A stretch of 64,000 nucleotides of DNA from Bacteroidaceae bacterium (GTDB lineage Bacteria > Bacteroidota > Bacteroidia > Bacteroidales > Bacteroidaceae), in assembly GCA_017619585.1 (NCBI GenBank), contig JAFZSA010000034.1, positions 1 to 64,000 of the forward strand, read 5' to 3'. A program made the translations under genes and the position numbers. Position 1 is the stretch's first letter; every line of letters starts with the position of its first letter. Below the pieces are notes generated by a model that ran no database searches, had not been told where the DNA came from, and saw nothing but the letters and a program-made list of their open reading frames with translations. Positions 24,432 to 26,707 of this stretch are shown here, in pieces.

Positions 24432-24775
24432 ACCACATGTTGCTTTGCAACTTAAGACATCTCCAGAGGAAAAACACCGTTCCGCTTCGCTTCACTGAAA
24501 AACAGCGCATGGGAAATAAATTCATTCTTGGTTCTGGCGATAAGTTGAGACATGTCGTCTTGTCAAGGATTTTCCTTAACAATATTCCGTAATCCCTGTT
24601 AGCTATTCCCTAATCCGTTTTTTCTGTCTAACTGGGCAAGAAAAATTCCCTGGTTGGGGAGTTTGTTGTTTCGTGTTAGTGAGATTTTAACTCCAATATA
24701 AGCAAAAATGAAAGTGTAAAATATTTTCCTGTTCAATACGATGCGGACCACATTGAGAATTAATACTAATAATTG

Positions 24776-24835
24776 CTACTATTAAGAGAAAATTTTGCAA
24801 ACCTTAATAGTAACAATTGTTAAACTTAATAGTAG
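24776..24835. repeat. CTTAATAGTA repeats, two direct at 22-bp spacing and one inverted
   Basis: CTACTATTAAG (24776-24786) is the exact inverse of CTTAATAGTAG (24825-24835); CTTAATAGTAA lies between them (24803-24813), 22 bp before the last copy. This looks like an operator cluster, about 100 bp outside the left end of the VapE element. Confidence 0.75.
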
Positions 24836-24933: not shown

Positions 24934-25005
24934 GATGACTATCGGGCGGGGAGGACGGGAGGTCTCTTTTTCAGACCTCCCGTAAACGTCCCTTATACCT
25001 CCCGT
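24934..25005. repeat. Left 72-bp end of the VapE element
   Basis: GATGACTATCGGGC (24934-24947), 7 nt, ACGGGAGGTCT (24955-24965), 7 nt, AGACCTCCCGT (24973-24983), AAACGTCCCTT (24984-24994), ATACCTCCCGT (24995-25005). The second and third blocks form a perfect 11-bp hairpin with a 7-nt loop. Confidence 0.85.
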
Positions 25006-25087
25006 AGTGTTTCTTTTTCTTGTTGTATAAAAACACAAAAACGTGCTTATTTGGGGTGGTTTTTCGAGAATTAATGAAATAATTTTA

Positions 25088-25095
25088 TATCTTTG
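25088..25095 (+). promoter_or_regulatory. -7 promoter element of the VapE-like gene
   Basis: TATCTTTG matches TAnnTTTG; the base context 20-24 nt upstream (TTTTCG) is only a partial -33. It lies inside the element, 83 bp downstream of the left repeat block, so the gene carries its own promoter. Confidence 0.55.
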
Positions 25096-25178
25096 CATGC
25101 TTTTTCAGCGATAGCCATTCAAAGAAGAGCACACAAGAACGAGATATCTTATTTATTAACCAAACAAAACTAACTGTT

Positions 25179-26387
25179 ATGAGTAAAGAATTACTTGTTA
25201 ACGGAGAGGCTATGAATGCTTCTCTGGAAGGGTTGCTTGTCGTTGAGCAGTTCCTTGTCGAGAATTACCTGTTTCGCAGAAACATCCTGAACGGAAAGAC
25301 TGAGTTTGCTACCCAGGAGGATGGCAATCAGACATCCGACTATCGTCCATTGATTCAGGAAGCCCTGAATAGCATCATCCTGAAGGCAAAGCGCCAGGAG
25401 ATTGTTGAAGGCAACCCCAAGTCGGACATCGTGGAGTATATCCACTCTGAGGAGGTGCCTTCCTATAATCCTGTCGAGGAATTCCTAAACGCTCTTCCCT
25501 GTTGGGACGGGCAGAACCACGTGGCTGAGCTATTCAGCCGATTGCCTGGCGTCAGCTCTGAGCAATTATCGTTCCTCTCCGTCTGGCTTCGTTCCACCGT
25601 TGCCCATTGGCTGCAGATGGACACCCTTCATGGTAATGAATGTGTTCCTACGCTGATTGGCTCTCAGGGTTGCGGAAAGACGACCTTCCTGCGCAGGCTG
25701 CTTCCCCAGCATCTGCGTCAGTACTATCTGGATCATCTGAACCTGAGCAACAAGTTCGACAAGGAGATGGCTCTTACCAACAATCTGCTGGTAAACCTGG
25801 ATGAGCTGGATGCCATCCGTCCTAGTCAGCATGCTGCCCTGAAGCAGACACTCTCCAAGAGCAAGGTAAACGGCAGGCCTATCTTCGGATGTGCTCAGGA
25901 GGACAGACCCCGATTTGCCTCCTTTGTAGCAACCACCAACAATCCCCATCCTCTGACGGATGCCACAGGTAGCCGACGTTATATCTGCATCCAGATTCCC
26001 CAGGGCCAGTATATAGATAATGTAGGGGAAATCAATTACGAGCAGCTTTATGCCCAGGTGCTGTATGAACTGCGAGAGCAGAAAGCACCTTATTGGTTCA
26101 ATAACGAGGAGGTGGCACGTATTCAGGAACTGAACATCGAATTTGCTGAGAAGAAGGACTTGGCAGAAATCTTGGCAGTTTGCTTTCGTAAGCCAAAGGA
26201 TGGAGACGTTGTGAGTACTATGAACAGCAATCAGGTGCTGCAAATGATACAGAAGGAATATCCCAGTATTAGGATAAACCACAGTACTAAGGTCAGTTTG
26301 GGAAGAGCCATGAAGGAGTTGGAGTTCGACCATACGGAACACAGTCATGTAGCCTATTACAAGGTGGTCCCCCTGAAGGCGGCATGA
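25179..26387 (+). CDS. VapE/VirE-like protein with SF3-type helicase ATPase
   Basis: 402 residues. After about 90 N-terminal residues comes the domain known as virulence-associated E (PF05272-like). It has Walker A GSQGCGKTTFLRRLLP (about 160-175), Walker B NNLLVNLDELD (about 200-211) and a sensor ASFVATTNNPHPLTDATGSRRY (about 245-266). These are the features of superfamily 3 helicases used for replication initiation by phages and plasmids. The larger VirE proteins of Bacteroides usually carry an N-terminal primase-like domain; none is obvious here. The gene has its own promoter and fills a unit bounded by inverted 72-bp repeats, so it may act on those ends. It could also be a remnant of a larger island. 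Confidence 0.85.
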   Translation: MSKELLVNGEAMNASLEGLLVVEQFLVENYLFRRNILNGKTEFATQEDGNQTSDYRPLIQEALNSIILKAKRQEIVEGNPKSDIVEYIHSEEVPSYNPVEEFLNALPCWDGQNHVAELFSRLPGVSSEQLSFLSVWLRSTVAHWLQMDTLHGNECVPTLIGSQGCGKTTFLRRLLPQHLRQYYLDHLNLSNKFDKEMALTNNLLVNLDELDAIRPSQHAALKQTLSKSKVNGRPIFGCAQEDRPRFASFVATTNNPHPLTDATGSRRYICIQIPQGQYIDNVGEINYEQLYAQVLYELREQKAPYWFNNEEVARIQELNIEFAEKKDLAEILAVCFRKPKDGDVVSTMNSNQVLQMIQKEYPSIRINHSTKVSLGRAMKELEFDHTEHSHVAYYKVVPLKAA

Positions 26388-26393
26388 GGTTGG

Positions 26394-26465
26394 ACGGGAG
26401 GTCTACGGGAGATGTACGGGAGGTATGAAACAAATACCTCCCGTTCTCTTAGCCCGATAACCATC
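26394..26465. repeat. Right 72-bp end of the VapE element
   Basis: Three tandem 11-mers ACGGGAGGTCT, ACGGGAGATGT, ACGGGAGGTAT (26394-26426), 7 nt, ATACCTCCCGT (26434-26444), 7 nt, GCCCGATAACCATC (26452-26465). It mirrors the left end block for block. The hairpin 26416-26444 may also terminate the VapE transcript. Confidence 0.85.
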
Positions 26466-26517
26466 GGCTTTGTGAGGAAAAATGGGGGGTGTCAATAATC
26501 TGCGTAAAGCGCCACGA

Positions 26518-26583
26518 CATATCACTCTCAGAGAAACGGCATATCACTCTCAGAGAAACGGCATATCACTGTCAGTGAAACGG
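26518..26583. repeat. Three 22-bp direct repeats without spacers
   Basis: Units at 26518-26539, 26540-26561 and 26562-26583 all begin CATATCACT and end GAAACGG; a degenerate fourth begins at 26584. Units 1 and 2 contain TCTCAGAGA and unit 3 contains TCACTGTCAGTGA, so each has an internal palindrome. They lie 53 bp outside the right end of the VapE element and 186 bp before the sigma-factor gene. Confidence 0.85.
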
Positions 26584-26707
26584 CATGTTGCTATCGGCGT
26601 CTTACCTTATCACCTTGTATGTTTTGCCATTGCTGGTGCGGATGATGCGAATTCCAGTGTTAGCTCTTCATTTTTGTTATTTTTCTTAGTTTTTCTGTAG
26701 TTTTTTG

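Follow-up and report, generated by a model that had tools for sequence, protein, structure and literature searches.

Comparison of a 64-kb stretch of a Bacteroidaceae genome (contig JAFZSA010000034.1, positions 1 to 64,000; the window) with related loci suggests that its single vapE gene, enclosed by mirror-image ends, is probably one copy of a family of small mobile elements in the chromosomes of Prevotella-type Bacteroidales. In most members the only protein would be VapE, an initiator helicase of the superfamily 3 (SF3)/D5 type, and the ends would be clusters of its binding sites. This reading is drawn from the covariation of the end repeats with residues of VapE, from gene-less copies with private repeats, and from the apparent relocation of an element between two loci, L034 and L049.

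An earlier note on the window had described mirror-image 72-bp ends around a lone vapE gene, and that description is borne out, with a match between the ends well beyond chance. The window's inverted-repeat score of 39.0 compares with at most 11.6 when the left flank is shuffled 200 times; the two 72-nt ends are 79% complementary to each other, and among 80 right ends the window's own is the top match to its left end. The terminal 14-bp inverted repeat reads GATGACTATCGGGC (24934–24947) on one side and GATGGTTATCGGGC on the minus strand (26452–26465) on the other, with 12 of 14 bases in agreement, and the 7-nt spacings in both ends are as claimed. All six exact ACGGGAGGTMT sites in the 64 kb lie inside the two ends, and eight sites are found when up to one mismatch is allowed, against 1.05 expected. 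A generic scan for a hairpin plus direct repeat likewise returns only the two ends in the 64 kb and nothing in five shuffles, and the folding of both ends as single-stranded DNA beats each of 200 shuffles. The three 11-mers per end are arranged as claimed, but the middle one is degenerate, with three (left) and two (right) differences counted by eye, so that the count of three is generous. The stop codon of vapE, the only likely gene between the ends, does fall 6 bp short of the right end, and the ends are terminal inverted repeats of the kind that delimit insertion sequences. In relatives the homologous unit extends ~30–45 bp farther outward, to an outer iteron pair recognised by eye; this pair is not evident in the window.

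Table 1. Positions of the vapE unit and its parts in the window.
Feature	Position	Strand	Description
Left end	24934..25005	+	72 bp; half-palindrome and four 11-bp iterons (one inverted, three direct, the middle direct one degenerate)
Left-end iteron hairpin	24955..24983		ACGGGAGGTCT, 7-nt loop, AGACCTCCCGT
Left-end 11-mer	24955–24965	+	
Left-end 11-mers	24973–24983, 24984–24994 (degenerate), 24995–25005	-	
TATCTTTG	25088..25095	+	Upstream of vapE; resembles what we take to be the Bacteroidetes -7 promoter box
vapE	25179..26387	+	402 codons; N-terminal region, SF3/VapE ATPase (residues 106–322), predicted C-terminal winged helix (residues about 328–402)
Codons of residues 346–402	26214..26384	+	Putative iteron-reading domain, from covariation
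Right end	26394..26465	-	72 bp; mirrors the left end
Right-end iteron hairpin	26416..26444		ACGGGAGGTAT, 7-nt loop, ATACCTCCCGT
Right-end 11-mers	26394–26404, 26405–26415 (degenerate), 26416–26426	+	
Right-end 11-mer	26434–26444	-	

The relatives comprise the best 80 of 347 stretches with a relative in a scan of GTDB species genomes, and loci added from whole-genome searches of 18 genomes, which brings the set to 110 loci besides the window. They represent 86 distinct elements, the window's own and 85 relatives, from Bacteroidales genomes of Prevotella and Bacteroidaceae type, many of them rumen metagenome-assembled genomes (MAGs) by title. Short-family copies number one to four per genome, or five in G018 when fragments at contig ends are counted. 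Read inward by eye, the typical end begins with a pair of iteron cores ~8 bp apart, followed by a palindrome, then one iteron in inverted orientation, a short loop and direct iterons, two to four in number, at ~11-bp intervals; the right array begins at most a few tens of bases past the vapE stop codon. The ~11-bp iteron is private to each element and common to both its ends, and across elements the iterons fit the pattern A-N-A-CCT-M1-M2-C-N-N. For 49 of the 80 elements that have both flanks, the element's own right end comes first among all 80, and for 64 it is within the top three. The palindrome CCKWTGTACAAAGGG, in contrast to the iterons, is common to elements with different iterons, and 9 of 24 genomes contain it, at 41 exact places in all (12 of them in G014), with one match for the reversed control.

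The iteron covaries with the last 57 residues of VapE, which are predicted to form a winged helix, and not with the ATPase. The statistics use a table of 82 elements (L063, L004 and L054 were dropped and one more was lost to a length filter), in which nine iteron entries (L028, L033, L012, L110, L029, L058, L072, L019 and L014) were set by hand from the ends; the border at residue 346 was placed after the DNA homology between L017 and L028 was seen to end ~172 nt before the end of the gene. Residues 387 and 390, picked because they ranked best among the 402 columns of this very data set, follow two iteron bases: after thinning, His390 occurs with C 33 times and with A once, and Asn390 with A 23 times and with C once. 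In the window VapE these residues are Glu387 and His390, its best candidates for specificity determinants. This covariation supports the view that the C-terminus of VapE recognises both ends in an element-specific way and, at the level of the family, the suggestion in the earlier note that the ends may be binding sites of the protein. Iteron specificity carried by a C-terminal domain is a feature of the initiators of Staphylococcus aureus pathogenicity islands (SaPIs), and appears here in the form of covariation.

Dispersal of the ends, both with and without the gene, is supported by comparisons within and between genomes. In the genome of L052 (G014, Prevotellaceae bacterium HUN156), a perfect iteron hairpin of the L052 type occurs at 46 places; it is absent from 16 other genomes. 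All 28 of the places examined have both tips, 252–438 bp apart, too short a span for vapE, and the flanks of these copies differ on at least one side. We call them gene-less in the sense that they have no room for vapE. In being short, numerous and bounded by two inverted ends that match those of a gene-bearing element, they have the properties of miniature inverted-repeat transposable elements (MITEs). A second private hairpin is present three times in G016 and 11 times in G201, and in none of 15 other genomes; ten of its places were examined, of which five are two-ended without a gene, one is a vapE element and four are single hairpins. L034 and L049, which lie in two genomes, share 1.7 kb at 90% identity; the identity starts and stops at the outer iteron pair, and the examined flanks are otherwise unrelated. 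L036/L044 and L040/L064 present a similar case, except that some extra left flank is shared. L037/L060 was rejected as a moved pair, these being orthologous places. At the position orthologous to L037, L060 carries a solo left end and, behind it, an open reading frame (ORF) of 424 aa in which a P-loop is recognised by eye (L060:345–1885); this stretch lies upstream of its complete element. Mobility, proposed in the earlier note for the window unit, thus gains support at the family level from the paired copies elsewhere, the gene-less copies and the flanks of L034 and L049; one of the two findings that the note named as refuting the proposal was a lack of other paired copies of the ends, and for ends of the same architecture such copies exist.

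These comparisons also bear on the view that VapE is an autoregulator that in addition binds scattered intergenic repeats, these having spread through ordinary recombination or other elements, and that the paired ends are operators. A left end upstream of vapE and a right array close behind its stop codon would suit operators, intergenic repeats abound in these genomes, and in some cases repeats in the flanks are shared as well as the ends; nor has an exact empty site been found. Such a view accounts poorly, however, for left and right ends that change together although 1.4 kb apart, for the tip-to-tip likeness of L034 and L049 within unrelated flanks, and for 28 two-ended gene-less copies in a single genome with flanks differing on at least one side; we consider it very improbable.

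Several observations weigh against a mobile family with VapE-bound ends. Sixteen of the 80 elements rank at least three foreign right ends above their own, and a regular expression for the conserved palindrome finds both ends in 15 of 85 elements (left in 24, right in 34), with 3 of 86 for the coding control. The two hairpins of L052 itself are each one base off the searched pattern and lie outside the 46. L004 has unlike ends, with iterons of ATATACCC and ACGGGAGGTGTT type, and is a mosaic or broken element. Among 19 loci with long VapE proteins, hand-picked from ~30 with frames of at least 600 aa, 14 lack paired ends that exceed the 99% null (14.0), one coming near at 13.4. A comparison of all flanks with all DNA gathered gave no nucleotide-exact empty site, and an offset and length scan of the 28 G014 copies for target duplications returned at best 2- and 3-mers that are shared terminal sequence. 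Finally, the activity that would cut and join the DNA is missing, since no nuclease domain was seen in VapE.

The search for empty alleles, which the earlier note had proposed as a check, gives a divided answer. Relatives without vapE do occur beside the same sigma-factor gene, with a left flank that is not syntenic, and the gene-less copy L262 is missing beside the orthologous left flank in five of five related genomes; no clean junction is seen at L262 because the intergenic DNA is too diverged. The joined flanks of L073 and L052, each compared with 80 genomes (largely the same ones), matched repeats and gene-less copies and gave no spanning match, and the flanks of L057 and L056, whose genomes are both incomplete MAGs, gave no empty site. 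The note had seen no target duplication, and none is evident in the 28 gene-less copies or in L034/L049, in which the tips are not located to the base.

The five long VapE loci with paired ends above the null (L295, L308, L309, L300 and L296; L295 was taken because its ends had already been seen) encode a BT4734-type N-terminal domain fused to VapE. The ends of L295 carry a GGGTGACAC motif, and a similar motif occurs in G007 (L192, L195) in two ends ~400 bp apart.

In the window VapE, PF05272 matches residues 106–322 (E 9.8e-35), the translation includes the Walker A sequence GSQGCGKTT, and the fold matches that of PDB entry 7pds. Its Pfam matches include no nuclease, transposase, primase or HUH (Y1) endonuclease domain. 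The protein family is very large: 6855 of 7999 scored candidates reach E 1e-20 or better, a count of proteins and not of ends. Phage records with a VapE relative number 445 and plasmid records 85, with identities below 60% throughout and at most 37% among the 20 matches listed; PHROG helicase and primase profiles match VapE. These matches could point to an inert remnant of a phage-satellite or prophage replication module that has lost its integrase and structural genes. This origin is already disfavoured, and we give it hardly any weight: vapE is under strong purifying selection (ratio of nonsynonymous to synonymous substitution rates 0.07–0.10), the same anatomy recurs in most of the 80 elements, viral contigs yielded no confirmed close relative, and the element has no DNA match in the phage and plasmid collections. 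Beyond the window, the search for its exact motif covered viral contigs only, in which the motif does not occur. A role as a defence system was rejected, the only indication being a weak AriA match (E 0.005), and Rfam gave a single match, far under the gathering score.

The surroundings of the unit are chromosomal in character, with genes for SurE, LpxB, a sigma-70 family factor and arginyl-tRNA synthetase. In agreement with the earlier note, which had seen no transposase or integrase, a Pfam scan of 23 of the 24 ORFs that reach 110 aa in the 9.9–43.2 kb interval of the window found no transposase, integrase, nuclease or phage-related gene.

We prefer to explain the dispersal by replication-driven copying. 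VapE would bind its own two ends in cis and, in trans, the ends of gene-less copies, assemble there as a self-loading helicase and open the palindromes. Each end would then serve as an origin from which the stretch between the ends is copied, as SaPI Rep and phage P4 alpha act at their origins, and the copy would be joined into intergenic DNA by a further step, perhaps host recombination, that leaves no evident target duplication. Private iterons would hold each helicase to its own copies.

The main rival to this mechanism also takes the element to be mobile, and assigns cutting and joining to a nuclease or recombinase encoded elsewhere, with VapE supplying specificity or energy. Known transposons have AAA+ partners, such as TnsC, IstB and MuB. 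A VapE in which no nuclease domain is seen and a palindrome common to elements with different iterons would both fit such a division of labour, and the movement data are silent on which enzyme cuts. The scanned ORFs of the window, however, offer no candidate for the partner, the exact palindrome is missing from 15 of 24 genomes, 11 of which have a short-family vapE, and no target duplication is evident; we regard an unlinked nuclease as unlikely, though deserving of serious consideration.

A gene for a DUF6078 protein accompanies 24 elements in all: it follows the right end in 22 of the 82 with enough flank (e.g. L017, L045, L056) and lies upstream of vapE in L058 and L072. The left end of L058 is farther out, past the DUF6078 gene, and its relative L072 looks alike; the homology between L056 and L057 ends directly past the DUF6078 stop codon. 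The protein has four invariant cysteines. It was considered as the missing nuclease and rejected, with no fold match at E 0.001.

Tandem arrays of ~22-nt palindromic units adjoin many ends, as at 26514–26595 in the window and at about 110–230 in L036. They are also present at loci L229–L256 and L142–L155 of G014 and G016, with sequences that differ between genomes, and in G201 they occur without ends as well (L145, L146). Some 100 bp to the left of the window element, a 28-nt inverted repeat (82%) with CTTAATAGTA motifs (24759–24830) lacks the architecture of the ends.

Copies within one genome tend to differ in their iterons. In the table of 82 elements, none of 18 within-genome pairs has an iteron similarity of at least 0.9, against 202 of 3303 pairs between genomes; for pairs at least 82% identical over residues 1–322, 61 of 108 between genomes reach that level and none of 7 within a genome does (Fisher p 0.004, the pairs not being independent; genome membership was assigned by hand). 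A rule resembling incompatibility is only suggestive, because MAG assembly collapses identical copies.

If replication-driven copying is correct, a replication initiator can spread DNA within chromosomes with no transposase of its own; to our knowledge, no known class of transposable element does so. The elements might then form a separate class, in which an SF3 helicase copies from two mirror-image origin-ends without its own transposase and mobilises gene-less copies in trans, the copies being kept apart by a two-residue/two-base code like plasmid incompatibility groups; we put this forward tentatively, judging its chances to be somewhat short of even. Replication-driven copying would also suggest a function for stand-alone members of the VapE family and a source for some of the intergenic repeats of Prevotella-type genomes, and the natural sets of covarying proteins and DNA sites make a winged-helix recognition code directly testable.

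Taken singly, the VapE family, iteron origins and miniature copies are all known. Among the matches listed from the open-licence literature, none describes a two-ended mobile unit with an initiator helicase as its only gene, a private residue–base code and cognate gene-less copies. Insertion sequences and their cognate MITEs pair an autonomous copy with miniatures that have common terminal inverted repeats, as here; they differ in that no transposase or target duplication was found in the present elements. The BrickBuilt MITE of Porphyromonas gingivalis is, like these, an intergenic repeat element of Bacteroidales, and its 23-nt tandem arrays resemble those that flank some of our elements; its terminal repeats match IS5-family elements, and the word helicase is absent from the main text (PMC4596501). 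REPtrons, with TnpA-REP (RAYT), and REPINs (PMC8266576) are alike in that a gene lies between palindromic repeats, relatives of which are scattered as small copies without the gene. TnpA-REP belongs to the HUH endonucleases, however, whereas VapE is an AAA+ helicase, and repetitive extragenic palindromic (REP) sequences share a conserved GTAG motif, whereas here the motif is private to each element. Phage P4 alpha has an origin-binding winged helix (1ka8; PMC4234260). It also has a primase and serves a phage satellite, while short VapE has no Pfam primase domain. SaPI Rep/PriRep1 and Cch2 of the staphylococcal cassette chromosome SCCmec, among the closest relatives of VapE, are self-loading initiator helicases with iteron origins (PMC7581432; PDB 7pds). 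In those systems a single origin lies next to rep, within a larger element; in the present family the gene stands alone between two mirror-image sites, and two-ended copies that lack it are scattered through the chromosome.
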